The notes under the pieces were generated by a model. That model was not told the origin of the DNA. It saw only the letters and a list, made by a program, of their open reading frames with translations, and did no database searches. Position numbers and translations under genes: made by a program. Of a stretch of 64,000 bases of DNA, positions 3,176 to 30,264 are shown piece after piece (within the stretch, counting starts at the first letter, position 1; each line of letters begins with the position of its first letter). This DNA is from Neobacillus sp. YX16. GTDB taxonomy: Bacteria; Bacillota; Bacilli; Bacillales; Cytobacillaceae. The DNA lies in contig NZ_CP126115.1 in assembly GCF_030123505.1 (NCBI RefSeq), positions 5,842,001 to 5,906,000 of the forward strand, read 5' to 3'.

Positions 3176-4081
3176 AATCAATCGTTTGATTAAAACTGCC
3201 TTAAACCCTTTAAATAAACGAACTCTTGGTAGTTTTCTAGAAATTTTCTTGTCGAGGATTAGGGTGGTTTTCATAGACTAGGTTCCATAGACTCTTACCA
3301 AAGGTTAGATGATTACAATTGTTGACTGGATATGACAAAAATGGATTCAATCAAACGTTTGATTAATTTTGGGATGAATCTAGCAGCGACATGGGTTTTC
3401 TTTAATAGTTATTTGAGAAGATTGTCGACAATTACTACTAATTGTTCTTATCAGGCGAAAGATCAAAAATAAATAAACTTATGAGTGAAAATGGATTGGT
3501 TACCAACTGGATAGTGGCACCAGGTTCTCTTAGTTATGGTGACTGCTACCGTAACTAAGAAGCTAATGAAAGCATAACTCGAAGAGGTAGAAGAAAGATG
3601 CCTTCCTACTTTTATGTAACCGTAACTTATCTGTATTTCCAGTTCGAATTCTTCTACATTAGTATTACCTACCTTATAGGTCTGTCGACAAATAACGATT
3701 GAATTCTCCTCAACTAAACGTTTAATTAGAAGCGTCACAAACCCTTTTGAATAAGGAATTTCAGCCTCATTTCAAGAGAATTTCTTGTCGAGGAAAAGTT
3801 TTGCTTTCTTCTAGAATATCCCCATAAAACACAATAAAAATGGCTTTCTACAAATAACTACGGGTTCTTCCAAGATGGTATGGTAATCAACCGTTTGTGT
3901 AAAAGTGGTATAAACTCCGTTATGAGGAGCTTTCTCTCTTGATTTTGGCATAATATCTGTCGGTAAATAGCGGAGAATCTAAGGATTTTCTTAAAGAATC
4001 CTCTAATATGAGGCGATTCTCCTTAAAACGGCATTCTTTGGCAAATACCTTGTTTTTCCCTATTACACAATCGATTGATTA
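3176..4081. repeat. Array of degenerate palindromic repeats
   Basis: Five copies of a 16-base palindrome related to AATCAAACGTTTGATT: 3176-3191, 3349-3364 (perfect), 3712-3727, 3885-3900 and 4066-4081. Neighbouring copies are about 165-185 bases apart, except one double-length gap. The best copies are followed 15-20 bases later by ACCCTT and about 75 bases later by TTGTCGAGGA. No convincing gene lies in 3137-4468. Related copies sit upstream of the second sigma/ComK module at 28215-28434. A central ACGT flanked by A and T tracts resembles LacI-family operators, but the repeat may be structural. Confidence 0.7.
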
Positions 4082-4242
4082 AATGGGGCGTAAATCCTCT
4101 AAAGACAAGCTTTTTGATCAAGATTACAAGAAAAAGAAGTCGAAATTTATTTTCATTCTTAACTAGATAACTCCATCTCTTTCGGGATTATAACGAACTT
4201 TTGAATTGTATTAATTACAGAGGAAATGGAGAAAAGACCATC

Positions 4243-4254
4243 AGAACCGTCCCC
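4243..4254. repeat. REP-like half-site
   Basis: AGAACCGTCCCC, identical to the right arm of the two-arm unit at 965-1018. It sits about 220 bases upstream of the first sigma gene; an equivalent copy sits at the same relative place at 28599-28610. Confidence 0.55.
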
Positions 4255-4414
4255 ATGTACACATGTACAAAAGAAATTATCTCTAATACTTTTTAACAAA
4301 CAAATCATATTTGAGACTTGTGGTTCCAATTTGAATCGAATTTCACCCTTTAAATCTCTTTTTCTATGCTAAATTCAATTTTCCTAGATTCGAAGTTTCT
4401 CATTGGATGGATTA

Positions 4415-4468
4415 TGGTAAAGCTACCTAGGAATATATCGGAAGCGCGCTGCCTGAAGGACTTTACCA
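4415..4468 (+). promoter_or_regulatory. Structured leader masking the sigma start
   Basis: TGGTAAAG at 4415-4422 pairs perfectly with CTTTACCA at 4461-4468, which ends one base before the GTG start codon. The Shine-Dalgarno AAGGA (4456-4460) is inside the loop, touching the stem. The inner sequence holds a CCTAGG and an AGCGCGCT palindrome that can form a smaller hairpin. The same leader is identical base for base before the second sigma gene (28778-28831). It matches no riboswitch class I know. Translational control is inferred. Confidence 0.65.
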
Positions 4469-4954
4469 GTGGAGAGCTTTGACGATTTAGTTATACAGTA
4501 TAAACCGATGATTCAAAAGATTATGCATTCCTTGCACATTTATAAAAATCAACAGGAATTCTATCAGACGGGGTTAATAGCACTTTGGGAAGCATCACAA
4601 ACCTTCGAAGAACGAAAAGGCACCTTTTCGAATTACGCCTACACCTCGATTAAGGGGAAAATGTTAACTGAAATGACACAGAACAACCACTACAAGGAAA
4701 AAAACATCCTTCCACCGAAGGAGGAATTTTGGGAAAGGATTGAAGGTCAGGATTCATCTCTTTTTCTTGAGAGGGAAACCATTCAAACCTATTGTGAAGG
4801 TCTAACGGAAAAGGAAGCAACATGGGTAATGGAATCGTATATAAATCAACTATCCATTAAAGAAATAGCAGAAAGCGAAAATGTAACCGTATCTGCCGTT
4901 AAGCAATGGAAATTAGGAGCACTAAGAAAACTGAAGGTAAAAGTTTTAATTTAA
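4469..4954 (+). CDS. Short sigma-70-family factor, copy 1
   Basis: 161-residue sigma factor with a region 2-like part (about residues 5-85, including QEFYQTGLIALWEA and FSNYAYTSIKGKM) and a region 4 helix-turn-helix (about 112-155, QLSIKEIAESENVTVSAVKQ). It lacks regions 1 and 3, as in small alternative factors of the SigH/ComX type. GTG 4469 is eight bases from AAGGA and lies at the edge of the leader hairpin. The next gene on the strand encodes a ComK-family protein, so I infer a role in a competence-like programme. A paralogue with roughly four of five residues identical is at 28832. Confidence 0.8.
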   Translation: MESFDDLVIQYKPMIQKIMHSLHIYKNQQEFYQTGLIALWEASQTFEERKGTFSNYAYTSIKGKMLTEMTQNNHYKEKNILPPKEEFWERIEGQDSSLFLERETIQTYCEGLTEKEATWVMESYINQLSIKEIAESENVTVSAVKQWKLGALRKLKVKVLI

Positions 4955-4967
4955 ACATTCTTTTCAA

Positions 4968-5002
4968 CCTGGGCAGTGCGTTTATCAACTAAACTGCCCG
5001 GG
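4968..5002 (+). other. Conserved hairpin after sigma gene 1
   Basis: CCTGGGCAGT pairs with AACTGCCCGGG, but no T run follows, so termination is doubtful. An equivalent hairpin follows the second sigma gene. After it, a stretch around 5015-5060 (GACAAAATCGGATAATATT and TATCCACCAAT) is also shared by the two loci. The remaining 5060-5340 contains no gene I can support. Confidence 0.5.
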
Positions 5003-5345
5003 ACTACTACCTTACAATATTCGACAAAATCGGATAATATTCACAAAGTATCCACCAATGGTACGCGTAGACGGTACAACTATTAAAGTAAGATATGGTA
5101 TTTTTTCTTTAACGGTATAAAAGAAAAAACACTTATACCTATCCCTTTCATCAAATGAAACTACTACTCTAGCCTCATTGTTATGCAACTAGACCTATCC
5201 CAAGATAGAGATTTTCATAACCACCTCAACATGTATTCACAAACAATACAGTATTTATTTCAACCATTGACTCCCAGTTTCATCATTTACTCTCTAACTA
5301 CTATCAGCAACAAAAAATTCAATTTGTAAATTCAGGAGTGATGTA

Positions 5346-5876
5346 TTGACTATTGAAAAGTACTACTTAATTAATCAGCATATGATGTACATGTTTGGGT
5401 TCTATGATCGAAATGGAAAAGTATGTACCCTTGTAAGACAGTTCGACCGTGTTTTCATCGTGGATCGATCACCTATGGAAATACTGGACGATAGTTTAAG
5501 ATGTATTGGATTTAACTTAAAAGGTGCCATGGATACTTCCAAGATCATCATGGGGAATAACATGATGTGCCCTGTCATGATCAACCATATACATAATATT
5601 TGTGTCTTTCCCGATAAATCACATAAACACGAAGATACAATTTGGTTTAATCCCAACCAAATCCTAAGAACACAAAGCCTTAAGCGAAAAACACATATAG
5701 AGTTTCGAAACGGACTCATACTCATGAGCGATTCCAAGCTATTTTCTTTTAATCACAAATGGAAATCAGCTGAGCAGTTAAGCAAAATTACCATTGAAAA
5801 TGCAAATAACCCGATATCTTTTATTATAGAACCACCAAGAAAGGTAAGGAAAAGAAGATCCAAAATTAAAAAGTAG
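5346..5876 (+). CDS. ComK-family competence regulator, copy 1
   Basis: 176-residue protein of the ComK family, the transcription activator of DNA-uptake genes in Bacillus and Staphylococcus. Shared family features are the N-terminal tyrosine segment, DRNGKVCTLV, RSPMEILDDS, a glycine-rich SKIIMG turn, PVMIN, ICVFPDKSHKHEDTIWF and the later IEFRNG and KWKSAEQL. It is slightly shorter than B. subtilis ComK and ends in a basic tail. TTG 5346 is used; CAGGAG lies upstream at a good distance. It follows the sigma gene by about 390 bases and precedes an XRE gene. A broken paralogue is at 29735. Confidence 0.82.
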   Translation: MTIEKYYLINQHMMYMFGFYDRNGKVCTLVRQFDRVFIVDRSPMEILDDSLRCIGFNLKGAMDTSKIIMGNNMMCPVMINHIHNICVFPDKSHKHEDTIWFNPNQILRTQSLKRKTHIEFRNGLILMSDSKLFSFNHKWKSAEQLSKITIENANNPISFIIEPPRKVRKRRSKIKK

Positions 5877-6005
5877 AATTCTCAAAAGGAGTTTGTACTT
5901 CTTTTCGAAAAATCCACTAACGGTACGCTTATGCGTACCACATGAGAAAAATACCTATGTTAATTTCTCCTTATACCAATGGATGGATGGGGTGTAAGGA
6001 GCACT

Positions 6006-6227
6006 ATGAGTAGAATCGTTGTCGTAAAATTAAAAGAACTACTTATAGAAAAAGGAATGTCGCTAAGAGAATTATCCCGTGAAAGTGATGTCCGACATGC
6101 GGCTTTAAGTGAATTAGCTAACCAAAAGAGGCTCAACGCACATTTTCAGCATCTGGCCCGTATAGCAGATGCACTAGATATAGACGATATGAATCAAATC
6201 ATTACTTTCAAAAAAGTCGACGACTAA
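6006..6227 (+). CDS. Small XRE-family HTH regulator
   Basis: 73-residue Cro/C1-type DNA-binding protein consisting almost only of the helix-turn-helix domain (GMSLRELSRESDVRHAAL and LARIADALDI). ATG 6006 follows AAGGAG closely; the upstream in-frame ATG 5979 has no site. It lies 3' of the ComK-family gene, before a shared terminator, so it is probably part of that module. The second module has lost this gene: there the ComK relic is followed directly by the related terminator. Confidence 0.75.
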   Translation: MSRIVVVKLKELLIEKGMSLRELSRESDVRHAALSELANQKRLNAHFQHLARIADALDIDDMNQIITFKKVDD

Positions 6228-6266
6228 TCTATTATCCTAGGTATTTATTTAACGAGATTCATATAA

Positions 6267-6317
6267 GATAACGAACACGGATAACAAAACCAAGTTCGTT
6301 ATCTTTTTATTTTTTTA
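6267..6317 (+). terminator. Intrinsic terminator of sigma/ComK module 1
   Basis: GATAACGAAC pairs with GTTCGTTATC and is followed by TTTTTATTTTTTT. A related hairpin (AAAGATAAC / GTTATCTTTTT) closes the second module at 30305-30352. Confidence 0.9.
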
Positions 6318-6419
6318 TAGGTTCAACAAATTACCAAAATGATTAAAAAAACATTTACATCTTGTAATAGCTAATAAATTATTTGCAGAGATTATTCCTA
6401 AGTAAATGAGGGTTTGCAG

Positions 6420-6659
6420 ATGAACAAAAAGAATAGTGAAATTGTCAAAATGGATATATGGAGAAAATTCGAGTTCAAAGGTCAATTGTACTACATAGAG
6501 GTTTTCCATTATATAGATGGTACCATCCAAGCGTTTGCATATAAAAGACCAGGTAAAGTCCAACATATATCAGAAGAGTTTCCAATAGGCATCGGTCGAG
6601 ATGACCATGAACCAACAAAGGCTGCTATTCTAGCCATTAACCACATTCAATTTCAATAA
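6420..6659 (+). CDS. Small hypothetical protein
   Basis: 79-residue soluble protein with aromatic-rich beta-like segments (GQLYYIEVFHYIDGTIQAF) and a C-terminal helix. I do not recognise the family. ATG 6420 follows GAGGG by seven bases, which supports expression. It stands alone between the module terminator and the transposase remnant. Confidence 0.5.
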   Translation: MNKKNSEIVKMDIWRKFEFKGQLYYIEVFHYIDGTIQAFAYKRPGKVQHISEEFPIGIGRDDHEPTKAAILAINHIQFQ

Positions 6660-6837
6660 TTCAAGCGATAAAACAGCTGGTCCCTGTTCTCTTATTAACG
6701 AGATTGCTATGAAACTTTTAAATCACTAGTTATGCTTATAAAGATTGGCAGTACTTTCCTTCCCTTTCTTCTATTATCCCAAGGTAATAATTCAATATAC
6801 TATCAATATACATATAGGAAGGTACCACTGCTTGCTG

Positions 6838-7104
6838 CTAAAAAAAATGATAGCTGCTCCAAGGGGAGTATTCTGGCTTCCTAACCATTTTTGCTTCAAC
6901 CGGATTTAAATGAATATAGCGGCTGACCTCAAGCATTCCTTCTTTATCGGCAATCATCTTGTCATAAAAGCGTTTTTCATACACATGAACTGTTAAGCGA
7001 TACTTGGTATTATAATAGTTTGCATACCTTTTGTTGAACAATGCCATGAGCTTTGAAAAGGAAGTATCTTCTGAACGAATAAGAAGGTGATAGTGGTTAG
7101 TCAA
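6838..7104 (-). pseudogene. REP-associated tyrosine transposase remnant
   Basis: Fragment of a Y1/HUH transposase of the IS200-like RAYT group. The core motif TNHYHLL carries the HUH histidines, and SRYIHLNPVEAK carries the usual catalytic tyrosine region. About the first 80 residues and the C-terminus are missing, and the ATG of the usual LMTNHYH is now TTG. Right at its 5' end the DNA reads GAGGAATTACAGTGCATGG, a diverged REP-like unit, which links this enzyme family with the dispersed repeats of the window. Confidence 0.8.
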
Positions 7105-7187
7105 GTCTGTTAATCCGAGGAATTACAGTGCATGGAGACAAGATTGAATCCCTTCTCTATTGGAATAATTTTGTGTATAATGGACAT

Positions 7188-7285
7188 ATAATAAAAAAGA
7201 GAAGTGCTGGTAACACTTCTCGATGCAGCCCCTACCGTCAGGGTGGTAGTTGTCAATGTGGATTATTTGTGAGAACCACCCTTTT
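7188..7285 (+). ncRNA. Candidate antisense RNA of a type I toxin-like pair
   Basis: A good -10 box (TATAAT, 7176-7181; no clear -35) precedes about 98 bases with a hairpin GAGAAGTG/CACTTCTC (7199-7221). They end in AGGGTGGT (7240-7247) pairing with ACCACCCT (7275-7282) followed by T bases. This transcript would be fully complementary to the 3' end of the opposing small-peptide transcript. The layout, with overlapping 3' ends, is that of txpA/RatA and bsrG/SR4 in B. subtilis. Expression is inferred. Confidence 0.5.
7191..7221 (-). terminator. Terminator of the small-peptide transcript
   Basis: Read on the minus strand, GAGAAGTG pairs with CACTTCTC and is followed by TTTTTTATT. It would end the transcript of the gene at 7263-7415 just where the opposing RNA begins. 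Confidence 0.65.
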
Positions 7286-7415
7286 GCTTGCTACGGCGCG
7301 GGGTGGTTTTCCTGTTTTCTAGTACGTTTTTCCGAAAGAAATATGCACTAACTTCACGCACAATCCCCTTCAGAACTTCTCGTAAAATTTCAAGGAAAGT
7401 TTCCGGTATTATCAC
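7263..7415 (-). pseudogene. Small amphipathic peptide gene, start codon lost
   Basis: Encodes a 40-50 residue basic amphipathic peptide (ETFLEILREVLKGIVREV, then YFFRKNVLEN). It closely matches the peptide at 13543-13668. There the start reads GGAGGTGATAATCATG; here the same place reads GGGGGTGATAATACCG, so the ATG has become CCG. Only a poorly placed GTG (7415) could start it. The family is unknown to me. Given the antisense transcript opposite its 3' end, a decayed type I toxin is a reasonable guess. Confidence 0.5.
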
Positions 7416-7512
7416 CCCCTTCCCCTGAATGAAGGAAAAGAAGATTGACAACCCGGCCACCCAACAATATTCAGCTGCAACTCCATTCTATTACTGATTA
7501 GCTATCTAACAA

Positions 7513-7552
7513 CCTATCAATCTTCGACAAAAACCGAGGAGTGACAGGCACC
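7513..7552. repeat. REP-like unit, GGAGTGACAGGCACC type
   Basis: TATCAATCTTCGACAAAAAC followed by CGAGGAGTGACAGGCACC. Nearly the same 38 bases occur at 11969-12008, with shorter relatives at 2152 and 14200. Nothing else in 7461-7646 looks functional. Confidence 0.7.
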
Positions 7553-7646
7553 GATATTCAAATAGGCCTTTTTCCTCTTTAAAAGGCTTTTATTAATAGT
7601 TATAATTTTCTGTGAATGTTATTATACGCATGTTACTGATTCGATC

Positions 7647-7705
7647 AGGCAGGGCGGCACGTATGAAAAGGATTGGCCTTTTCATCGTGTTCCCCTGCCT
7701 TTTTG
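7647..7705 (+). terminator. Long hairpin with T run before the phosphatase-fold relic
   Basis: AGGCAGGG pairs with CCCTGCCT, and the inner CACG-TATGAAAAGG pairs with CCTTTTCAT-CGTG; TTTTT follows. It has the form of a strong terminator. Because no plus-strand gene lies shortly upstream, it could be an attenuator of the next gene or a leftover from a deleted one. Confidence 0.6.
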
Positions 7706-7870
7706 TTGTTCCTTCTTTTCCTACACTACGCTTGGACAAGCTTTATGCTTTTTCAATATACTCCACCGAGATATCCACCTAGAGAATTTAACCAGAAAGG
7801 AGGCATCGCAGAGCAGGTTCCAATTAACAGTGACAGTGGTTCAAAATACTTAGTAAAGGTGATTACAAAA

Positions 7871-8164
7871 GTGAGGAAAATAATCACAAGTTTTATTGCC
7901 GCCATCGTGCTAGCGTTCCTAACCGTTAGCACCATTCCGGCACAAGCATCTGTATCTGAGTTTCCAAGGGGCAACGAGGTTAACTTGAAGGTAATGTCGT
8001 ACAATATCCATCATGGAGTAGGAGTCGATAATGTCCTTAATCTTCAAAGAATTGCTGACTTGATTACCGAGAAACAGGTTTTAATATCGACCTATTCCGA
8101 TCACCTGCCAATCATTGTGGACCTTGATTTAGAACGGTCCGCACCTTATCTTAACGGCAACTAA
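7871..8164 (+). pseudogene. Endonuclease/exonuclease/phosphatase-fold protein, internal deletion
   Basis: Starts like a secreted EEP-fold hydrolase: GTG 7871 after AAAGG, a signal peptide ending near AQAS, then the first catalytic block VMSYNIHHG. After LQRIADLI it jumps to the last block, YSDHLPIIVDL, with the catalytic histidine. The roughly 170 residues between, including the metal-binding glutamate and the central aspartates, are missing, so an enzyme is not expected. The fusion is in frame. Confidence 0.75.
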
Positions 8165-8182
8165 AAATATAGGAGTGATACT

Positions 8183-9325
8183 ATGAATAAATGGAAAAGC
8201 AAATGGGGATTGGCCCTTACTTTAGCTGGGACCATCACACTAACATCCGCTTTTGCGGCACCTACTTTCAAAGAGGCGGAGGAAACCAACCCGAATCCGG
8301 TTATTACCCCCATTAAAACAGATGAACCTACCTCTTATCGAATAAATCAACTAGAAGATATCGCGATGTACTATTACTGGCATGGCGGTGACCTAAAGCA
8401 AGCGGAGGAAGAAATTTTTAAAGGCATTACCCTAAAAGGCAAATATGATGTAGTCGAAGCGGCGTATAATGAGGCCGTCAAACTGGACCCTCATGATGTG
8501 GATCTCAAAATCTCGCTGGCATCCACACAAATCATCCAGAAGAAACTCCCGGAAGCATTAGCGACCTACCAGCAAATTCTGAATTTGGATCCTGACAACT
8601 TTAATGCACATCTGCTATACGGGGTTTATTCCAAAGTAAATGGGGATGAGAAAGCGTATAAAACGGCCATTGCCAACTTAAAACGGCTCGACGCCCATAA
8701 AACCAATGAATACCTTGAAAAATTTGCCACTACAGAAACGATTATGAAGACCACCTTAAACACAGAGGTGCCGGATAATCTGCCGCAGAGCAAGCATGCC
8801 ATAGTGATTCTGGGATATGCACTTGCGGATGATGGAACGATGAGAGAACCACTAATTGAACGGTTAAAGGTCGGCCTAGCCGCAGCCAACAAGAATCCAA
8901 ATTCCAAAATCATTGTGACCGGCGGCGTGCCGAAGCAAGGCAATACGGAAGCAAAATTGATGAAGGAGTGGCTCATGTCTAACGGTATAGCGGAAGGAAG
9001 GATTTTGACAGAAGATAAATCAACAGACACCGTTGAAAATGCCCTATTCACTACAGCAATCCTTGAAAAAGAAAGTCTGAAGGATGTCACGCTCGTGACA
9101 AGCGCCAGCCATATGAGACGCGCACTCACCATCTTTACGGAAGCAAGCGATTTTTACGATAAAATGAAAGCAAAAAACAGCGACCGGGCATTCACGAATG
9201 TGGTTTACTTGGATTACCCATCGATTGAAGAAGCCCACAACGTAACCAAAGACGAAACAATGGTCATTTACCGCGACTTAATGAGAGCCACCGGCGTTTG
9301 GCAATATCCGGACAAGCAGCGCTAA
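8183..9325 (+). CDS. Secreted YdcF/DUF218 protein with TPR repeats
   Basis: 380 residues: signal peptide (1-25), TPR-like helical repeats (about 55-190, with LDPHDVDLKISLAS and LDPDNFNAHLLYG), then a YdcF/ElyC-type DUF218 domain (about 203-350). Family motifs are HAIVILGYALADDG, IVTGGVPKQGNTEA, STDTVENA and VTSASHMRRA. In enterobacteria the family (SanA, ElyC) affects envelope integrity; the reaction is unknown. AGGAG precedes the ATG. It converges with a second DUF218 gene, suggesting an old duplication that diverged in accessory domains. Confidence 0.85.
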   Translation: MNKWKSKWGLALTLAGTITLTSAFAAPTFKEAEETNPNPVITPIKTDEPTSYRINQLEDIAMYYYWHGGDLKQAEEEIFKGITLKGKYDVVEAAYNEAVKLDPHDVDLKISLASTQIIQKKLPEALATYQQILNLDPDNFNAHLLYGVYSKVNGDEKAYKTAIANLKRLDAHKTNEYLEKFATTETIMKTTLNTEVPDNLPQSKHAIVILGYALADDGTMREPLIERLKVGLAAANKNPNSKIIVTGGVPKQGNTEAKLMKEWLMSNGIAEGRILTEDKSTDTVENALFTTAILEKESLKDVTLVTSASHMRRALTIFTEASDFYDKMKAKNSDRAFTNVVYLDYPSIEEAHNVTKDETMVIYRDLMRATGVWQYPDKQR

Positions 9326-9334
9326 CCTCACAAC

Positions 9335-9368
9335 AAAGGCTAAACCAATTTTTTGGTTTAGCCTTTTA
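9335..9368 (+). terminator. Intrinsic terminator of the TPR-YdcF gene
   Basis: AAAGGCTAAACCA pairs with TGGTTTAGCCTTTT, a 13-bp stem with A and T runs on both sides. It can serve this gene and possibly the convergent one. Confidence 0.9.
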
Positions 9369-9434
9369 TCATGAAAATGTTATTTAAGTAGCTTGTCAAC
9401 TATTTTAAAAAAATAGCCTTTTTCATTACTCCCA

Positions 9435-9590
9435 TTATAACTTTGATGCATCAAGATTCGCTTTTCTTCTATAAATATAGAGCATTGCCCCAAGTGCAAC
9501 CAATAATGAGCCAATTAACAGGTACGTATACATATTTACTGCTGTATTTGGTAGCTTATGCGTTCCCTGTGAGGCTTTGGAACCGTAGCG
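9435..9590 (-). pseudogene. Out-of-frame LPNTA cell-wall anchor
   Basis: Directly downstream of the DUF218 gene at 9536-11047, but in another frame, lies a complete sorting signal: KLPNTA, a hydrophobic stretch (TYLLIGSLLVALGAM), the basic tail RRK and a TAA at 9435-9437. A single-base loss near 9585 (GCTACGGTTCC) separates it from the main frame. LPNTA-type motifs are recognised by class D sortases in Bacillus. Confidence 0.8.
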
Positions 9591-11047
9591 AATACTAACT
9601 TGGAACTTGCAAAATTTAAATCGTTAATAGCTGAATCTACTTCTGCTTGAGATGAAGTTGGATTTGCAAGTACCGCTTTCGCTGATGCTAATGCCTTTTT
9701 AAAGGCCGTCCAGCTGGCAGCAGTATATTTTGCTGCTTGTTTCTTATTAGCATCGGTCACTGCATTTTCCAGCGCGGATTTATCTACTTCTACTACTACT
9801 GGTTTTTTTACAAGGTTTTCCATCGCTTTCATTAAGGAATGGAGTGCTGCATCTACTTCTTCTTGCGTCGCTTCATTATTTCCTAATACTTGCTTAGCAA
9901 GACTTAGTGCAGTTGAGAAATCTTTCCAATTCTGTCCTGTGTAGTCAGACTTTACTTTTTTCTCGGCATCCGCAACTGCTTTTTCTAGTGCGGATTTGTT
10001 TACTTCAACACTAACCACGATGTTTTCCGTTAGTTTTATGCCCTTTTCTTCATAAGTGATTTCAAGTTCTTGGTCTCCGATTTTACTTGAATCGAATCCC
10101 GTAATATCCGCAAGTTCTGTAACGTCACGGACATACTGACTATCATATTGTGCATTAACCGTTAAATTTAATTCTTCACCTGCGTAGTATTCTAAGTCCC
10201 CTTCAATAGCCAAATCTTCCAGTTTTGAGATAGGGAGATTGCTAGCTCTTGGTACACCTGCAATGGAGGACATTCCACTTACTTTTAGGGTCATTGGTTC
10301 TTCTGTTTTATCCGCTCGATACCAGCCTGCATTACCTTGTCCTAAAAACTCAATCGGAGCTTTGCCAAGTTCTTTCGCTTTCAAAAGTGACATGGTGTAA
10401 TAGAATATACTTGCCCTTTTTAAATGATATTGGCTGCTTATAATAGAAGCGGTTTTTATATTATAGTCGTTGTACAAAATATCATAGCTGAACGATGCAT
10501 TTTGAACGGTATTTGCACTTTTGTTTTCTACAATGATTCTTTCTATCGGAAGTCCCTTAGCCAATAGCCAATCACGCATACGATCGCCTTCTGTCCAACC
10601 GTTTTTCATTACTCCGCCAGTTACTAAGACATAAGAGTTAGGGTATTTGTTTGCACTATCTAGGGCAACTTGTAATCTACCAACTAATTCATCTGTCATT
10701 GTACCGTCGTTATTTAAAGCAAACCCTAAAACAATAAAGGCATGCGTATTATCTTTTGGAAGACCGTCGGGAGCCACATCTATATTTTCTTCCATATCAA
10801 TCTCGATCCAATCCCAATAATCAATGACCGAATTCCATAACTTATAATCTTCCAGAGATTGTTCTTCAATCAGTTCAAGAGTTCTTTGGACATCAGTACG
10901 TGCATCTTGTCCATAATAATAGATTAATTCACTTACTAGTGTTTTTAAGTCCTTTGAGGCATCAGGGGTTTCTGCCAAGGCAGTAGAGAAAGGAATCAAA
11001 CTAAATATCAATAGCAAACTGAATAATAAATTATAAATTTTTTTCAT
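9536..11047 (-). CDS. YdcF/DUF218 surface protein with FIVAR-type repeats, anchor frameshifted
   Basis: 503 residues in the open frame. A signal peptide (1-25) is followed by a DUF218 domain (about 100-250: HAFIVLGFALNNDG, LVTGGVMKNGWTEG, SANTVQNA, SSQYHLKRA), a bacterial Ig-like segment (about 285-345) and two FIVAR-type three-helix modules (about 350-415 and 420-485), each starting VDKSALE or VNKSALE. The frame then shifts and ends in an unrelated tail (PKPHRERI), while the true LPNTA anchor continues in another frame. As it stands the protein would be secreted, not wall-bound. GGAGGAG precedes the ATG. Confidence 0.8.
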   Translation of the reverse strand: MKKIYNLLFSLLLIFSLIPFSTALAETPDASKDLKTLVSELIYYYGQDARTDVQRTLELIEEQSLEDYKLWNSVIDYWDWIEIDMEENIDVAPDGLPKDNTHAFIVLGFALNNDGTMTDELVGRLQVALDSANKYPNSYVLVTGGVMKNGWTEGDRMRDWLLAKGLPIERIIVENKSANTVQNASFSYDILYNDYNIKTASIISSQYHLKRASIFYYTMSLLKAKELGKAPIEFLGQGNAGWYRADKTEEPMTLKVSGMSSIAGVPRASNLPISKLEDLAIEGDLEYYAGEELNLTVNAQYDSQYVRDVTELADITGFDSSKIGDQELEITYEEKGIKLTENIVVSVEVNKSALEKAVADAEKKVKSDYTGQNWKDFSTALSLAKQVLGNNEATQEEVDAALHSLMKAMENLVKKPVVVEVDKSALENAVTDANKKQAAKYTAASWTAFKKALASAKAVLANPTSSQAEVDSAINDLNFASSKLVFATVPKPHRERISYQIQQ

Positions 11048-11160
11048 TACTATAATTACTCCTCCATCGTTATGAACTATTTACTATTTATGTCATCCAC
11101 TTCGTTGTTAATAATCTTACTTGAATCAATCCACCTCCTTTAAATATGAATGTTTTACAG

Positions 11161-22937: not shown

Positions 22938-22984
22938 AAGTTTCTCCTTCAATTTCTCAAATTTAAAACGGCCTTTATTATATA

Positions 22985-23064: not shown

Positions 23065-23119
23065 ACATTTCTTTAGAGTACTAGGAAGATCAAAAGGCTA
23101 TTAACCTATGACTCTATTA

Positions 23120-24292
23120 TTAATCTTGATACCAGAAACAACGATGAGGGAAGTTTGTTAGAGATTCTGCTCCATCCTTACGGATAACAACCGTATCTTC
23201 CACACGTGTTCCGCCAACACCTGGCTGGAGCAGAGTAATTTCAAATGCAATGGTTTGGTTCTCTACAAGCACATCCTCACTACCAGGTCCAATTACAGGA
23301 ATCTCTTCCTCTGGATCCATACCAGTGGAATGGGCACATCCGCGTCCTTCTCCTGAGGCATGGTCATAACCTGCTGCTTTTAATACTTCATTCGCAGCAA
23401 TATCTGCTTCTGCACCAGTCATTCCAGGTCTTAACTTAGACATACCTTCCCTCCATGCCTCAAGGCAGACCTCAAGCATCCTTTCTTTTTCCTTAGAAAC
23501 ATTTCCATATGCAACTCCACGAGCCATATCGGATGAATACCCATTGAAACGGCAACCAATATCGATTAATACAGTGTCACCCTTTTGAATCTTGCGGTCC
23601 CTAGGACGAGCTAAGAAGTAATCTGAGGAGTTCGGACCTGATTGAACCATAATATCAAACGAAACCGTATCTGCCCCATTTGCAAACATTGCTGCATAAG
23701 CCTGGCGAGCTACTTCTCTTTCAGTTAAGTTTTCAGTTTTCAGTAAATCATGAATTGTTTCGATTCCAATATCAGCTAATCTTCCTGCCACTTTCATATT
23801 ACGGATTTCGTTTTCACTCTTAATAGATTTTAGATATTCAATAATATTAGTTTTTTCAAGATGTGTACCAACATTTAGACTGTCTTGAATTTGTTCATAG
23901 AATTCAAGTGCTAAATATTTTGATCCACTCATTCCAATTTTGCTATTAGGGTGTTTTCTCTGAAAATCTTTTAGTACGTTTGGCAATTCTTGACGGATTC
24001 CTCTTACATCAGAGAACCAGGTTTCATCCTTAGCATAAGAAACCAAGCTTCCTTCAGCCATTAGGATTGGCTCTCCCTCAAGCGGCAGGAAAACCATTGC
24101 AGGGTAAGGGAATACTCCATCAAATGCCCTGTAATTTGCCAGCCAGCGAACATTACTCATTCTGGCTGCATCTGACCAAACAAGAAGACCTTCATAGCCT
24201 TGTCTAGCCATCATCTCTCTAGCTTTCTTCACTCGCTCCTGATACTCAATAACTGGAATATCCTGCAATACATCTTCGTAATTGAATTTCAT
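23120..24292 (-). CDS. M24-family metallopeptidase (Xaa-Pro peptidase/creatinase fold)
   Basis: 390 residues. The N-terminal creatinase-like domain (1-160) is followed by a pita-bread catalytic domain. All five metal ligands of M24 enzymes are visible: the aspartates in LIDIGCRFNGYSSDMARG, the histidine in GCAHSTGM, and the glutamates in IAFEITLLQPG and TRVEDTVVI. It lies between the binding-protein and permease genes of a sugar-type transporter, so it may process the imported compound. M24 members include prolidases, creatinase and ectoine hydrolase; the exact substrate is open. Confidence 0.88.
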   Translation of the reverse strand: MKFNYEDVLQDIPVIEYQERVKKAREMMARQGYEGLLVWSDAARMSNVRWLANYRAFDGVFPYPAMVFLPLEGEPILMAEGSLVSYAKDETWFSDVRGIRQELPNVLKDFQRKHPNSKIGMSGSKYLALEFYEQIQDSLNVGTHLEKTNIIEYLKSIKSENEIRNMKVAGRLADIGIETIHDLLKTENLTEREVARQAYAAMFANGADTVSFDIMVQSGPNSSDYFLARPRDRKIQKGDTVLIDIGCRFNGYSSDMARGVAYGNVSKEKERMLEVCLEAWREGMSKLRPGMTGAEADIAANEVLKAAGYDHASGEGRGCAHSTGMDPEEEIPVIGPGSEDVLVENQTIAFEITLLQPGVGGTRVEDTVVIRKDGAESLTNFPHRCFWYQD

Positions 24293-24329
24293 ATTAGTTC
24301 CTCCAATAATTTATTTATATTTTTTAAAA

Positions 24330-25349
24330 TTAAAAAACGGATTCAGGGTCATAGAAATCAGCAATATTGCTATCATCAATTAGAGGTGCTTCCAACTCTA
24401 CACTCTTAGGTACTTCTTTACCGCGTACAGCATCAATAGCAAGTTTTACAGCAGTTTCCATATCCCATTCATTTTTTACGGACATAACATATTGGTCAGT
24501 ATTCTTAATCATTTCTAAAGCTTCTTTTTGAGCATCCATTCCAATGATTTTCACTTCATCTGAACGACCAGCTTTTTTAATAGCCTCTATTGCACCAAAG
24601 GCCATTTCATCATTTTGTGCAAATACCACATCTATTTTATCGTTAGCTTGAAGGATATTGGTCATAACCTCCATCGATGGAAGTCGCAGCCATTCACCAG
24701 ACTGTTGGGCGACAACCTTAATATTTGAATATTTTTCGATTTCTGGCATGAAGCCTTCACTTCGAAGTATAGAGTTGGTAGATTCAGTAACTCCATCAAG
24801 AATGACTAGATTACCTTCTTCCCCCATCAATTTAGCAATATACTCAGCCGCTTTTTTGCCCATTGTTACCTCATCTGTTGCAACATAACTAACATAGGGA
24901 ATTTCCGGATCATCCGGGACCCCAGAAGCACCGATTATTAATGGAATCTCTGCTTGTGCTATTTGTTTATATGCTGGATAAATTGCTTTTCCTGATAAAC
25001 TGCTAACAATAATCGCATCGACATTACGAGCAATTAAACTTTCAATATTTGAAATTTCCTTATTTACATCGCCTTGTCCGTCAGTCACAATCAATTCTAC
25101 ACCCAATTCTTTTGCTGCTTTTTTAGCACTTTCTACGTTTGCAATTCTAAATGGGTGGTCCATTACAGATTGAGAAAAACCAATAACAATGTCACCCTCT
25201 TTTTTAGTTTTGTAGCTATATGAGGATCCGTCTCCAGAATTTTTAGTGGTTTCTTTATTATTTCCATTTGATGATTGTGTTCCGCATCCTACAAGGACCA
25301 ATGAAATACATAAAATGAAAGTAAGTATTGCTGCTGCATGTCTTTTCAT
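24330..25349 (-). CDS. Sugar-binding lipoprotein of the ABC importer
   Basis: 339 residues with a lipoprotein signal peptide and lipobox LVLVGC (cysteine 22), a serine/asparagine-rich linker and a periplasmic-binding fold of the RbsB type (Peripla_BP_4): VIGFSQSVMDHPFRI, RNVDAIIVSSLSG, VTMGKKAAEYIA, DVVFAQNDEMAFGA and KIIGMDAQKEAL. It is the first gene of the importer operon, with AGGGGG before the ATG. The substrate is a sugar or a related polar molecule; the family alone does not tell which. Confidence 0.92.
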   Translation of the reverse strand: MKRHAAAILTFILCISLVLVGCGTQSSNGNNKETTKNSGDGSSYSYKTKKEGDIVIGFSQSVMDHPFRIANVESAKKAAKELGVELIVTDGQGDVNKEISNIESLIARNVDAIIVSSLSGKAIYPAYKQIAQAEIPLIIGASGVPDDPEIPYVSYVATDEVTMGKKAAEYIAKLMGEEGNLVILDGVTESTNSILRSEGFMPEIEKYSNIKVVAQQSGEWLRLPSMEVMTNILQANDKIDVVFAQNDEMAFGAIEAIKKAGRSDEVKIIGMDAQKEALEMIKNTDQYVMSVKNEWDMETAVKLAIDAVRGKEVPKSVELEAPLIDDSNIADFYDPESVF

Positions 25350-25559
25350 TTTATACCCCCTAATTTTTTATTTAACAGCTAAAAATAAAATGTATCCGTT
25401 TGCAAACTGTTATTTAGTCTACGCCTCCTAAGAATTCACAAAAACATTTTTCCTGCCCTATTGCTCCTTTCTGTCGTTTTACCTGCTACAATTAAATTAT
25501 AGTATTAACTAAAATGAGAGAGAGGATGAAAAATTTGATTATGAGGTTAAAAATGATGC

Positions 25560-25850
25560 TCTCCGATTAGATGAAGTGGCAAGAAATCCTTATCTCCGAA
25601 AAAAGGTCTAACCCTAGGAGACAAGACGTTCGTGAACACATCCATAAAGAAATTATAAATCCATGTGCGATTGCGATACAAAAATCCCCCGTTTTCCCAT
25701 TCCTCACAATCCATCAAATGAATCCGATGCCCTTTCCCATGATCAAATTTGAAATCCTCCAGGAAGAGGGAAAGAGCTTCTCCAATACGCTATCCAGTCT
25801 CAAATAGTAGTTGAATCAAGAACATGTCCCTAATATTTCTCATTTCGTTT
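25560..25850 (-). pseudogene. Tyrosine recombinase (integrase) remnant
   Basis: Minus-strand reading of about 25740-25850 gives NIRDMFLIQLLFETG, a stop codon, then RIGEALSLFLEDFKFDHGKG. This is the first catalytic arginine block of phage-type integrases, with a tryptophan or cysteine codon turned into TAG. Below 25700 the frame becomes unreadable. It lies just upstream of the transporter operon and marks the edge of the second accessory region. Nothing else in 25350-25560 but the operon's presumed promoter is visible. Confidence 0.7.
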
Positions 25851-25868
25851 CTTAATGCGAATTCCACT

Positions 25869-25916
25869 TCCTAACACACAAAAAAATGGCCCACCTCCTT
25901 GAACGGAGATGAGCCT
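25869..25916 (-). terminator. Terminator of the DUF4365-like gene
   Basis: On the minus strand GGCTCATCTCC pairs with GGAGGTGGGCC and is followed by ATTTTTTTG. A homologous element lies at 27279-27318, so the gene between is framed by two copies of the same terminator-like sequence. Confidence 0.75.
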
Positions 25917-25987
25917 GATTCATTATCTATCTTCTAATGGGATAGCAGCTAACCACAGCCTATATTTGTTCTCTTTATGCCTTCGAA

Positions 25988-27160
25988 CTATTTTCGCAAT
26001 TCGTCATCGATTAATTTAATTAGATCAGATGGAAAGTAATAATCATCTCCAACAAATATATTTTCATCTAAATCAACAAACGTTTCTTCAACCCATTTTT
26101 TCATAAATCTTAACTTCTTAGGATCCTTACCTTTAAATTCCTCTTCAAAGTTATCTAAGAAGTATTTTAGGTGTTCTTCCTCTTCTTGAAATTGTGTACC
26201 TACTGATCCTTCGTCAAACGACTCTTGTCCTTCTGTATATGTACTATCTAATTGTTCTATTTTCTTTTCTAACTCACTGAAATCTTCTGAGCAAATTCTC
26301 TCTTTTATACCTTCTAATATTGACTTATTAGTGTTGAACTCCTCAATAAGTGTTTCCGGTTCTTCTATATTTAACAAGTCTTTTAAAGTATAAACGTATT
26401 CAGTTACATTCCTAATAAGGGCATAAATTTCCTTTTTAGAATTATAGAATTCATTTGATATATCATCACCGTTATTATATCTATGACTTATCTTCTTGTT
26501 AATAATATCTTTCTGTGGACTTAGACCCAGAAATCTTCTATTACCAATTTCTCTAAAATAATTTGCACTTTCAATGGCAGAATTAATTTTTTCTAGTATT
26601 TCTTCCTTAGGAGTAAAGGACTGAAAATGCGGAAATAATTGTTTTAAGGTTATAACTACTTCAGTTTTATATACTTTTTCTTTTTTATTTATACGCTTAA
26701 TTAACCCAAGATTCCCATCATTAACGAGCTTATCAATTTCTTTAGAAGATAAACATAACATTCTACTTTTCTCTTCATCATCGAAATGAATAAGAACAAA
26801 AAATTCATTTTTAGTCTTCAGTGTTTCATCATCGAGGTAATAAATATATTTTGAATCTATAAACATTTCATTTTCTTCATCAGAGATAAATTTAGATTGG
26901 ACAAAGACTACTGGTGAAGCCTCGATATCTATTAAATCATTTACAAGATCACGTCTCTGAATTATGTAATCTGCACCATTAACATCAACAGATCTTTCTA
27001 ACACCCAGAAGCCACTGTTAATAAAAAATGATCTTGTTCTCGCCTCACCGATCTTTCCATTTTCCACAGAATTTAACCAATCCGTATTCGATGTCTGATT
27101 TAAGATAATGTTCTTAGTTTCATCTTTAAAACTATTAATATCAACTTTCTCCCTTGACAC
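25988..27160 (-). CDS. DUF4365-like nuclease-fold protein
   Basis: 390 residues. The N-terminal 170 residues fit a PD-(D/E)XK-like DUF4365 domain: GKIGEARTRSFF with the helix glutamate, VNGADYIIQ with the aspartate, and VVFVQSKF with the Q-x-K end of the core. The rest is a charged helical region with coiled-coil character and an acidic tail, without a recognisable domain. Family members are often found in defence or mobile regions. Here it stands alone next to an integrase relic, so a defence role is inferred, not shown. Confidence 0.6.
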   Translation of the reverse strand: MSREKVDINSFKDETKNIILNQTSNTDWLNSVENGKIGEARTRSFFINSGFWVLERSVDVNGADYIIQRRDLVNDLIDIEASPVVFVQSKFISDEENEMFIDSKYIYYLDDETLKTKNEFFVLIHFDDEEKSRMLCLSSKEIDKLVNDGNLGLIKRINKKEKVYKTEVVITLKQLFPHFQSFTPKEEILEKINSAIESANYFREIGNRRFLGLSPQKDIINKKISHRYNNGDDISNEFYNSKKEIYALIRNVTEYVYTLKDLLNIEEPETLIEEFNTNKSILEGIKERICSEDFSELEKKIEQLDSTYTEGQESFDEGSVGTQFQEEEEHLKYFLDNFEEEFKGKDPKKLRFMKKWVEETFVDLDENIFVGDDYYFPSDLIKLIDDELRK

Positions 27161-27278
27161 CTAGCTACACCTCTTCTTCACAAATGATTTTTTATATCTT
27201 TATCATACATCTTAATCGTTTTTACTTGAACACGAAACTAACAGACAGTCTTTCGTGTGAATATTCGTTATTAAAACA

Positions 27279-27318
27279 AACAAATGGCCCACCTCCCTGT
27301 AGGGAATAATAAGCCTGA
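27279..27318 (-). terminator. Terminator-like element, second copy
   Basis: AAATGGCCCACCTCCCTG and AATAAGCCTGATT match the element at 25869-25916. On the minus strand it would end transcription of the gene at 27455-27664. Confidence 0.6.
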
Positions 27319-27454
27319 TTGTTAGTTTTACTTCTATATAAAATGCAGTGGGAATCATCTAAACATCCCATATCCCCGAAAAATATCAGCTGTTTGTGTT
27401 GAACAAACAAGCCCACGACAGTTAAGGTGATAAGCATTATTTGTATTAACTTTC

Positions 27455-27664
27455 TTATGCCTTCCTTCTAGCCCAGAAAATACCTACGCCGTCGAAATCC
27501 TCCATTTCTTCTACTACTCGTCCATCGGAATACTTGGAACAGTTACAATCCCTATATTCTTTTTCGCATTTACTACATTTTGACTGATTTACAATATACA
27601 CTGGAGCAATTTGCAGATACCCTTTTTCTATTTCTTCAATAACTTCAGGATGGGGATTAATCAT
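27455..27664 (-). CDS. Small zinc-ribbon-like hypothetical protein
   Basis: 69 residues with a cysteine cluster CSKCEKEYRDCNC that could bind one zinc ion, and an acidic helix at the N-terminus (HPEVIEEIEKGYLQ). I do not recognise the family. The ribosome site is weak. Composition and codon pattern look real, and a terminator follows. Confidence 0.5.
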   Translation of the reverse strand: MINPHPEVIEEIEKGYLQIAPVYIVNQSKCSKCEKEYRDCNCSKYSDGRVVEEMEDFDGVGIFWARRKA

Positions 27665-27756
27665 TTAAAGTTCTATACCCTGTCTATCTTCATCCCAATA
27701 CACCTTATGATTTTCTTATATAAACCGTCTATCAAAATATAAAAAACCTGATTGTC

Positions 27757-27975
27757 TTACATGTCGTTAAGTTTTGGATTATCATTTGCCTTAGGAAAGT
27801 ACTCCGTTAAATTCTTTGCTATTACTTCACACCATGGTCTAATAGCTAATTCATTATTGGGAAATTGCAAACCATCATTAAACAAAATTAGAATATCTGC
27901 AACGTCATTCCAGTTCGGGATTAGCTTGCTACGACACTGCTTACTACATTTAATGGTGACTGCAACCATAAACAT
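27757..27975 (-). CDS. Hypothetical protein, possibly truncated
   Basis: 72 residues reading like a real protein (IPNWNDVADILILFNDG, WCEVIAKNLTEYFPKAN) with two cysteines near the N-terminus. No ribosome-binding site precedes the ATG, and a REP-like half-site lies just upstream at 27992, so the 5' part may have been lost. Function unknown. Confidence 0.4.
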   Translation of the reverse strand: MFMVAVTIKCSKQCRSKLIPNWNDVADILILFNDGLQFPNNELAIRPWCEVIAKNLTEYFPKANDNPKLNDM

Positions 27976-27991
27976 TCAATTAAAAGCCATC

Positions 27992-28003
27992 AGAACCGTC
28001 CCC
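27992..28003. repeat. REP-like half-site
   Basis: AGAACCGTCCCC, same family as 965-1018. It bounds the 5' end of the possible truncated gene. Confidence 0.55.
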
Positions 28004-28013
28004 AATGTCATTT

Positions 28014-28100
28014 GAAGTAGAAGTGGGGTGGTACCAGACCTCATAATGCAAAAGAAGGGGCTTCTAACACCGCAAGGTAGTAAAAGCCCCTTCTTTTGCA
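28014..28100 (+). promoter_or_regulatory. T-box-like 3' end with terminator, no gene behind it
   Basis: GGGGTGGTACC resembles the T-box antiterminator core and is followed by a strong inverted repeat, AAAAGAAGGGGCTT against AAGCCCCTTCTTTT, without a long T run. No specifier stem-loop is seen upstream and no tRNA-related gene follows, so it is at best a relic; chance similarity is possible. Confidence 0.3.
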
Positions 28101-28214
28101 TCTATTTACTAAATTAATACAAATATCACCATTTTCACTAAACCATCTTTTCGACACTTTCCAACGCTTCTTAGAAGGTACAAACCCTGCATTGCCAACA
28201 TATGCAGCGATTCT

Positions 28215-28434
28215 AATCAATCGATTAGTTAATCCCAATGCCACTAATCAAACGTTTGATTAGATAGACAATGAGTTACTTTATTAAGAGAACTTTCTAT
28301 TGTTTTTAAATGAATAATTTGCCGAAGAAAAGTAGAGAGTATTTATGACCTTCCTCAAAATAGACAATAGAAACTAGTAAATGTCATAACCTGACTCACA
28401 TATACTATACGAAATGCCAATCAAACGTTTGATT
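28215..28434. repeat. Palindromic repeats upstream of module 2
   Basis: Three copies of the array seen at 3176-4081: AATCAATCGATTAGTT (28215), and two perfect AATCAAACGTTTGATT (28246 and 28419). The last is followed by ACCCTT, AACGAACCTGG, TTTTCTAG and TTGTCGTGGA, matching the first copy at 3176 along about 85 bases. No gene is seen in 28101-28777. Confidence 0.7.
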
Positions 28435-28598
28435 AAAAGTACTATGAACCCTTATATAAAAACGAACCTGGGCAGTTTTCTAGTGGTTTTTTTGTCGTGG
28501 ATATAGCCTTGTGTTCCTAATCATTCTTTTCTATCCCTCAACCAATGCCATGGTGAACTCTACAAATATATAGTTAAAACTTGAATGAGGAAACCACC

Positions 28599-28610
28599 AG
28601 AACCGTCCCC
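28599..28610. repeat. REP-like half-site
   Basis: AGAACCGTCCCC at the same place relative to sigma gene 2 as the copy at 4243 has to sigma gene 1, so it was carried along in the duplication. Confidence 0.55.
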
Positions 28611-28777
28611 TTGGACATTGATAAACTTCGGGAAAAAAATTATCTCTTATACTTTTTAACAAACAAATCAATTTTAGGGCATGTTGTTCCAATTTGAATC
28701 AAATTTCACCCTTTAAATCTATTTTTCTATGTTAAATTCATTTTTCTGTGATTCGAAGTTTCTCAATGGATGAATTA

Positions 28778-28831
28778 TGGTAAAGCTACCTAGGAATATA
28801 TCGGAAGCGCGCTGCCTGAAGGACTTTACCA
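28778..28831 (+). promoter_or_regulatory. Structured leader of sigma gene 2
   Basis: TGGTAAAG (28778-28785) and CTTTACCA (28824-28831) bracket the Shine-Dalgarno AAGGA and end at the GTG codon. About 75 bases running from just before the stem into the coding region are identical to module 1, although the flanks have diverged, which points to selection on the leader. Confidence 0.65.
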
Positions 28832-29323
28832 GTGGAGAGCTTTGACGAATTAGTTGTACAGTATCAGCCTATGATTCAAAAGATTATACGATCCTTGCAC
28901 ATTTATAAAAATAAACATGAATTCTATCAGACGGGGTTAATTGCACTTTGGGAAGCTGCTCGATCCTTCGACGAACGAAAAGGGAGTTTTTCGAATTACG
29001 CCTACACCTCAATTAAGGGGAAAATGTTATCTGAAATGACACAGATCAACCACTATAAGGAAAAGAACATTCTTCCAAAGGAAGAGGAATTCTGGGAAGA
29101 TGTTGAAGGTCAGGAATCACCACTTTTTCTTGAGAAGGAAACCATTCAAACCTATTGTGAAGGCTTAACGAAAAAAGAAGCACAATGGGTAATTGAAACA
29201 TTTATAAATCAACTATCCATTAAAGAAATAGCGAAAAGTGAGAAGGTGACCGTATCTGCCGTTAAGCAGTGGAAATTAGGGGCAATAAAAAAATTGAAGG
29301 GAATAGCTGCAAATCACCATTAA
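28832..29323 (+). CDS. Short sigma-70-family factor, copy 2
   Basis: 163 residues with the same region 2 and region 4 layout as the protein at 4469 (EFYQTGLIALWEA, FSNYAYTSIKGKM, NQLSIKEIAKSEKVTVSAVKQ). Differences are mostly conservative, and the C-terminal ten residues are unrelated. Its frame is intact although the ComK-family partner downstream is broken, so it may still act on the copy 1 regulon or on shared promoters. Start GTG with AAGGA eight bases upstream. Confidence 0.8.
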   Translation: MESFDELVVQYQPMIQKIIRSLHIYKNKHEFYQTGLIALWEAARSFDERKGSFSNYAYTSIKGKMLSEMTQINHYKEKNILPKEEEFWEDVEGQESPLFLEKETIQTYCEGLTKKEAQWVIETFINQLSIKEIAKSEKVTVSAVKQWKLGAIKKLKGIAANHH

Positions 29324-29338
29324 CTGCATTCATTTCAA

Positions 29339-29377
29339 CCTAGGCAGTGTGTTTACTGCCAGAACTGCCCGGGTTTT
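29339..29377 (+). terminator. Hairpin after sigma gene 2
   Basis: CCTAGGCAGT against AACTGCCCGGG followed by TTTT. It is homologous to 4968-5002 but here has a short T run, so partial termination is possible. The 29378-29734 spacer contains the shared GACAAAATCGGATAATATT block and otherwise no gene. Confidence 0.5.
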
Positions 29378-29734
29378 ATGATATTTTTACAATATCTGAC
29401 AAAATCGGATAATATTAACAAAATATCCACCAATAGTGCTTTGTAAGCGGTACAAATATTATAGTAAAAAATGATATTATTTCTTTAATGGTTTAATATT
29501 GTTTATTAATTAGAAATAGCACTACTAGAATCACTTTACAAATATAATTCTGATTCTCGTCATTCTATTAAATCACTATTATAATCCATTTTACTCAACT
29601 TGACCTCACTATACTAAATACCTAATTTTCTCCATTTATGTTCTTAAACATTAAGTATCAGTATTCATCTCAGCCATTATCTAACTGCTATCAGAAACAA
29701 AAATCAATATGATAACATTTTAGGAGTGATGTAT

Positions 29735-30264
29735 TTGATTATTGAAAGGCACTATGTAATTAATAAACATATGATGTACATGTTTGGGTTAAATGATCGT
29801 AATGCAAAAGTATGTACCCTAGTAAAAGAGCTCAACCGAATTGTCATCGTTGATCGTTCACCTTTAGAAATTCTAGATGATAGTCTAATAAGTATCGGAT
29901 TTAATTTAAAGGGCGCTATGTACTCTTCCAAGATCATCATGGCGAATTATACAATGCGCCCTATCATGATCAACCCTATACATAATATTTGTGTCTTTCC
30001 CGATAAATCACATAAACACGAGGATACGATTTGGTTTAATCCCCGCCAAATCATAAGAACTCATAGCACTAAACGAAAAACACAGATAGAGTTTCAAAAT
30101 AGTTTTATACCATGAACAATTCCAAACTATACTCTTTTAATAACAAATGGAAAGGAGCAGAGCAGTTAAGCAGAATCACCATCGAAAATGCGAAAAACCC
30201 ATAATCTTATATCATTGAAAAACCAAAGAATACCAGAAAAAAAAGTCTAAGAAGCAAAAAGTGA
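29735..30264 (+). pseudogene. ComK-family regulator, copy 2, broken
   Basis: The first 126 residues parallel the intact copy (MYMFGLNDRNAKVCTLV, DRSPLEILDDS, ICVFPDKSHKHEDTIWF). At about 30109 one base is missing compared with copy 1, and the frame ends at 30115. The lost frame continues with SKLYSFNNKWKGAEQLS, then meets a stop (CCATAA) and resumes to TGA 30262-30264. Two independent lesions argue for true decay rather than a read error. A truncated 126-residue protein may still be made from TTG 29735. Confidence 0.8.

Follow-up and report, generated by a model that had tools for sequence, protein, structure and literature searches.

A window of 64,000 nucleotides (nt) from the 6.23-Mb chromosome of Neobacillus sp. 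YX16 (assembly GCF_030123505.1, contig NZ_CP126115.1, positions 5842001-5906000) contains two loci, 24 kb apart, at each of which a short sigma-70 gene is followed by a gene of the ComK family. We regard these loci as probable examples of a two-tier, ComK-driven sigma switch that is old, widespread and mostly vertically inherited, with recurrent local duplication and decay. In such a switch, a protein of the ComK family, in most cases paralogous to the master regulator of competence, would bind ComK boxes (K-boxes) just upstream of a weak -35 element and turn on the sigma gene, often next door, and the sigma factor would then redirect RNA polymerase to a regulon of its own. A conserved start-site element at each sigma gene examined would add a further checkpoint. 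An XRE regulator encoded after comK, in copy 1 and the loci most closely related to it, would probably hold comK and itself off through GGTACGC..GCG sites. Copy 2 has kept the sigma gene, while its ComK is broken and it has no XRE gene.

The original prediction, made from the letters of this window alone, had proposed duplicated sigma and ComK loci with open sigma frames and with a ComK gene that is intact at the first locus (copy 1) but broken at the second (copy 2), and all of this was confirmed. The homologous block (4237-5874 and 28593-30262) has 79.3% identity over 1686 columns in a nucleotide comparison, and outside it a palindrome unit (3174-3259) and the terminator (6248-6308) align as separate pieces. 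The order of the unit is the same at both loci: a ComK box and a promoter come first, followed by the start-site element, the short sigma-70 gene, a hairpin, the ComK-family gene and a terminator. The 141-nt leader is 94% identical between the copies, and a search of the whole genome yields only these two matches. The features concerned are the following, with protein lengths in amino acids (aa) and with dN/dS as the ratio of non-synonymous to synonymous substitution rates.

4370..4382, + strand: ComK AT-box of copy 1 (AAAAN5TTTT, 1 mismatch), upstream of the sigma promoter
4389..4418, + strand: putative sigma promoter of copy 1, with -35 TTCGAA (4389-4394), 18 nt, and -10 TATGGT (4413-4418)
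4424..4460, + strand: start-site element of copy 1, with TACCTAGGAAT (4424-4434), GCGCGC (4444-4449) and the Shine-Dalgarno (SD) sequence GAAGGA (4455-4460)
4469..4954, + strand: sigma-70 family factor of copy 1, 161 aa, GTG start, Pfam Sigma70_r2 and r4
4968..5002, + strand: hairpin after sigma in copy 1, arms GGGCAGT/ACTGCCC
5346..5876, + strand: ComK-family gene of copy 1, 176 aa, intact, TTG start, PF06338 at 96.3 bits, dN/dS 0.13 against the G043 orthologue
28733..28745, + strand: ComK AT-box of copy 2, 1 mismatch, in the same register as in copy 1
28776..28823, + strand: copy 2 counterparts of the -10 (TATGGT), the start-site element and the SD
28832..29323, + strand: sigma-70 family factor of copy 2, 163 aa, intact, dN/dS 0.17 against locus L080
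29339..29373, + strand: hairpin after sigma in copy 2
29735..30262, + strand: ComK-family pseudogene of copy 2, PF06338 at 82.0 bits on the open part, with in-frame stops and a frame change

Membership of both genes in the ComK family, which the prediction had left to a profile search, stands, as their scores of 96.3 and 82.0 bits compare with a gathering cut-off of 22.3 bits for PF06338 (Pfam ComK). Copy 2 is disrupted by one TGA and one TAA in frame, and an additional piece of the gene lies in a different frame. The canonical comK (182 bits) lies elsewhere in the genome, in agreement with the predicted separation from the housekeeping gene, and so does a third ComK paralogue (111 bits). A midpoint-rooted ComK tree with long branches places the window genes in a 54-row clade of paralogues that is distinct from canonical comK (100/99). 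The gaps between the sigma and ComK matches at the window loci are 395 and 439 nt. A Spo0A-box-like heptamer, TTCGACA, upstream of comK was exact in only 6/11 aligned loci and was not relied on.

For the sigma genes, the Pfam region 2 model (PF04542) scores above its cut-off in both copies, and region 4 scores above it in copy 1 and slightly below it in copy 2. The top NCBIfam model for both is PRK06759 (NF005248, RNA polymerase factor sigma-70), with 112.1 and 116.2 bits; it is also the top model for two plasmid-borne sigmas and matches 16/16 members of our alignment A1, the scores shown ranging from 104 to 128 bits, all under the curated cut-off of 133. The window sigmas therefore probably form a neighbouring, unnamed subfamily beside PRK06759. 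Estimates of dN/dS for sigma, between species and between the copies, are 0.17 to 0.33, and the ratio is 0.13 to 0.33 in five of six comparisons of sigma and ComK; window copy 1 and locus L079 differ by 1 synonymous and 9 non-synonymous changes, which are too few to judge selection. The nearest relative of the copy 1 sigma is that of strain 7884-1 (94%). The copy 2 sigma shares 85% with its counterpart in another species (strain EB106) but only 80% with copy 1, and by these identities the two copies are not a recent duplication. The hairpin after sigma, which had been predicted to be conserved, is recognisable by eye in 11 aligned loci, where compensatory changes include GGGCGGT/ACCGCCT and the L019 hairpin is imperfect.

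An alignment of 65 leaders (A2; the two of the window and 63 of the 79 named loci described below) shows an invariant TA...T in the -10 hexamer, at a constant distance to the leader, and a weak -35. B. subtilis ComK binds pairs of AAAAN5TTTT boxes 8, 18 or 31 bp apart (PMC3536758). When this box was searched with up to 2 mismatches in 81 sigma promoters and in shuffled versions of them, a box start at -45 to -40 relative to the -10 was found in 55/81 promoters, against a shuffled mean of 11, and additional peaks lie near -62, -74 and -94. Pairs of boxes are overrepresented at spacers of 7-8 and 18-19, near the published 8 and 18 bp. Pairs with steps of 20-22 or 30-32 occur in 53/81 sigma promoters, compared with 133/712 other upstream segments of these loci and 96/349 GC-matched ones.

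The 81 loci are the two window copies and 79 named ones from a single scan, in which the 80 top-ranking of 181 relatives were kept. With a gene no more than 6 kb from sigma at 36/81 of them, ComK is the commonest neighbour, followed by a generic ABC ATPase cluster (16/81), and neighbour clustering (top 25 clusters) found no non-ComK family in more than 16 of the 81 loci. By manual reading, ComK lies within 2 kb in 30/79 named loci. Across the genus, sigma is present in 58/61 genomes and a ComK match in 61/61. ComK follows within 1.5 kb downstream, always on the same strand, for 18/72 sigma matches; this count used 72 of 73 sigma matches, a 38-bit one being omitted, and 63 ComK rows of at least 83 bits, with weaker rows, canonical comK and fragments omitted. 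In other genera, sigma and ComK are mostly transcribed divergently (Mesobacillus, Rossellomorea, Cytobacillus and Siminovitchia) and sometimes on the same strand with ComK upstream (Lederbergia). In Lederbergia panacisoli (L141, 166-7403), three ComK genes surround one sigma gene, two of them nearly identical in the tree.

Order-wide, the sigma family was found in 198/219 sampled genomes (E 1e-15), nearly always with one match among those listed. From these we took 44 of the 198 sigma-bearing genomes, selected so as to cover many families, together with all but one of the 21 genomes without sigma. In the former, ComK lies within 2 kb of 16/46 sigma copies, with 11 of the 16 divergent, and we estimate the chance expectation at well under 1% for about two ComK genes in a 4-Mb genome. 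The predicted linkage of sigma and ComK thus survives in many other genomes. Two or more ComK matches are present in 38/44 genomes with sigma and in 3/20 without it (Fisher 5.6e-8, phylogeny ignored).

The closest known case comes from B. cereus ATCC 14579, in which a ComK paralogue, ComK2 (BC5250), lies beside a sigma gene, BC5251, in addition to the canonical ComK1. Overexpression of comK2 raises the adjacent BC5251 more than 1000-fold, against 1.9-fold with B. subtilis ComK and 2.6-fold with ComK1 (PMC3128618), and the K-boxes of the sigma promoters fit this ComK2-specific activation. The B. cereus genes are convergent, as is a pair on a Priestia plasmid (L235), whereas in the window both genes are on the same strand with ComK downstream, XRE is present in copy 1 and there are two copies. 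The order-wide spread, the K-boxes of the sigma promoter and the start-site element are not described in the passages of PMC3128618 that treat the B. cereus pair. That paper was the sole match in a search for BC5251, and among the titles and abstracts listed by wider searches of open-licence PubMed Central (PMC) no other describes such a sigma-ComK pair in Bacillaceae. The S. aureus system of SigH, ComK1 and ComK2 is similar in that a small alternative sigma factor works with ComK proteins, and also in gene duplication and in post-transcriptional control at the ribosome site of sigH (PMC3486894 and PMC12491500). It differs in that the window sigma fits other models, that no conserved inverted repeat or fold was found in our loci, and that there is no evidence for the reading of comG.

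Copy 1 has a small regulator gene downstream of comK, with operator-like sites around it, and both copies end in a terminator-like hairpin.

5060..5073, + strand: operator-like GGTACGCGTAGACG upstream of comK in copy 1, resembling the palindrome before xre; candidate XRE-binding site
5922..5939, no strand assigned (both strands match): perfect palindrome GGTACGCTTATGCGTACC between comK and xre
5979..6227, + strand: small XRE/Cro-type regulator, PF13443 at 40 bits, likely true start at 6006 behind an SD
6248..6308, + strand: terminator-like hairpin of copy 1, after xre, 76.6% over 64 columns to its copy 2 counterpart
30288..30351, + strand: terminator-like hairpin of copy 2, after comK, homologous to that of copy 1

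The terminators are related, as had been predicted, and stand behind XRE in copy 1 and behind ComK in copy 2. XRE had been taken as an addition to copy 1. Among nine sister loci with a linked ComK, XRE follows ComK in eight (L010, L011, L014, L016, L017, L019, L020 and L021) and was not found after it in L018, and since the terminators are homologous, loss from copy 2 is the simpler reading and XRE was probably lost there rather than gained in copy 1. Sites related to GGTACGC lie upstream of comK in copy 1, L079, L080, L084, L086 and L094, and from these positions we infer, for the closest relatives only, that XRE would repress comK and its own gene. A role of XRE in a defence system was dropped, as PADLOC gave only weak CapH-like and helix-turn-helix matches.

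Several observations weigh against a ComK-driven sigma switch as outlined here. ComK is lacking within 6 kb in 45/81 loci, although at 15 named loci the available sequence on a side is shorter than about 6 kb, and a K-box pair is absent from 28/81 sigma promoters. Pairs are nearly as frequent without a nearby ComK (27/45) as with one (26/36), so that another ComK may be the activator. Excess box pairs are found as well at spacers of 25-29 and 36-41, neither of them among the published ComK spacings, the strongest excess, near 38-40, being the sum of the two shorter steps, and the 81 sigma promoters show no pair excess at the published 31 bp. Moreover, the sigma loci are kin, the K-box counts are not independent, and shuffles ignore this kinship. 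The ComK genes beside sigma in Rossellomorea, B. haikouensis, B. litorisediminis and B. methanolicus PB1 cluster with canonical comK in the tree (on long branches), and in genome G067 the ComK adjoining sigma is the higher-scoring one of the genome. The GGTACGC palindrome before xre is present in 3/9 clade stretches (the window, L011 and, imperfectly, L010) and absent in the other six. Copy 2 has retained its sigma gene although its ComK is broken. Finally, no target of the sigma factor was identified, comG having been tested as a candidate.

The start-site element has the overall form TACCYRGGAA...GCGCGC...SD. Its first block, as a loose pattern, is present in 79/79 named sigma loci, and a GCGCGC-type core followed by a ribosome site in 77/77 distinct sequences. 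Even a Priestia plasmid sigma gene, whose protein is only 39% identical, carries TACCGGCGGAATACA...ACGCGT...AAGGA at the equivalent place, and no known RNA family or fold accounts for the element. Since the first block begins five bases past the -10 hexamer in copy 1 and the 65-row alignment is gap-free up to it, it should sit at or near the 5' end of the transcript. A genus-wide pattern search with the CCTAGG form gave 33 matches in 26/61 genomes, against 8 for the reversed control; on manual reading of the coordinates, 27 of the 33 precede a sigma gene or a piece of one, 2 are remnants and 4 are chance-like.

These results allow a broader, more tentative proposal. Second ComK genes are common in these Bacillales, as the 38/44 sigma-bearing genomes indicate, and B. 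cereus ComK2 lowers comG, yet raises the neighbouring sigma gene (PMC3128618). Linkage, K-boxes and co-loss suggest that running this sigma factor is a shared job of the second ComKs. It is conceivable, though we would put it below an even chance, that the second ComKs across the order are chiefly triggers of a second, sigma-driven cell state, and that the start-site element is a new cis-element, either a transcription-start operator or an RNA, gating entry into it.

It is less likely, in our view, that the element is a structured regulatory RNA such as a riboswitch or thermometer, comparable to the inverted repeat over the ribosome site of S. aureus sigH (PMC3486894). The prediction had described a structured leader; the strong conservation of the sequence was borne out, and a fold common to the sequences was not. 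The SD and the start codon do lie inside the very conserved stretch, and around the CGCG core more pairing than in column shuffles is seen at positions 2, 4 and 5, as such an RNA would lead one to expect, but positions 3 and 6 have no clear excess, RNAalifold finds 0 pairs on the 65 leader sequences, and arms exchanged between loci fold equally well (z +0.8 and +1.0). Rfam has no family matching the element, permissive thresholds giving only two weak small nucleolar RNA matches.

The sigma factor could instead be a true competence sigma reading comG and other uptake genes, like staphylococcal SigH or streptococcal ComX, with ComK as co-activator, which we judge to be improbable. S. aureus SigH together with ComK1 drives comG (PMC12491500), and a sigma-H-type motif (AGGA...GTCGAA) lies upstream of comGA in 26/30 Neobacillus loci, compared with 28/1180 random stretches of all comGA loci. 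Outside the genus, however, this motif occurs in 12/29 loci, about as often in sigma-bearing genomes (7/15) as in those without sigma (5/14), so that ordinary sigma-H is the simpler reader and the idea that our sigma reads comG through a sigma-H-like promoter was dropped. The window sigmas are also far from SigH models: TIGR02859 is not among the 21 families matched by copy 1, nor among the 25 families displayed, out of 27, that copy 2 matches, and the PRK08295-type match of copy 2 is weak (27.6 bits against a cut-off of 212). In addition, with B. subtilis ComK overexpressed, B. cereus ComK2 reduces comG (PMC3128618). The competence-like role given to the module in the original prediction is thus not supported, while its ComK family, its separate comK, its linkage and its local duplication all stand.

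The prediction had further described a module that spreads or duplicates, and of these two, local duplication with decay is repeatedly seen. Five other members of the genus carry additional or degenerate copies, separated by 4 to about 160 kb: G008 and G022 have two remnants each, G020 has a second sigma gene 4 kb off, G019 has a ComK piece and an intact XRE, and G027 has three sigma genes on one contig. The remnants in L245 (1046), L246 (4214) and L248 (8808) retain the start-site element and the first 31-53 sigma codons. Spread is weakly evidenced, with no phage match and two plasmid matches for sigma, one of which carries the pair, namely Priestia megaterium plasmid pPmC-129-3 (L235, 3989-5051), on which sigma and ComK are convergent. 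A mobile or selfish regulatory cassette copying itself around the chromosome, for which the scattered copies, the plasmid pair, REP-like (repetitive extragenic palindromic) half-sites beside both window copies and genes for RAYT-type transposases no more than 6 kb from sigma at 7/81 loci might be cited, is the least probable explanation, as sigma is nearly always represented by one listed match in genomes of the order, its presence in 58/61 genus genomes looks vertical, the only phage match of the pair is a weak one for ComK (24%, a Listeria phage record), and most loci have no transposase.

In the window, the REP-like half-site CAGAACCGTCCCC lies at 4242-4254 and 28598-28610, and a fragment of an IS200-like (RAYT-type) transposase at 6838-7104. 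The palindromes that the prediction had counted as part of the module proved to be a dispersed repeat. The unit AATCAAACGTTTGATT stands at window positions 3176, 3349, 3712, 3885, 28246 and 28419, and genome-wide there are 20 exact 14-mer sites, all at 0.39-0.75 or 5.39-5.87 of 6.23 Mb, that is, within about 0.85 Mb of dnaA (base 1), with none in the middle 4.6 Mb; they are often paired, 33 or 173 bp apart. A function as sigma or ComK sites was rejected in view of this origin-proximal dispersal. The palindrome could be an anchoring site of the origin region, of the RacA kind.

Near copy 1, a 279-aa protein encoded at 2297-3136 has no Pfam match and lies near the module in 4/81 loci. Two known RNAs are encoded on the - strand of the window, a c-di-GMP-I riboswitch (31904-31985) and an epsC RNA (49434-49555).

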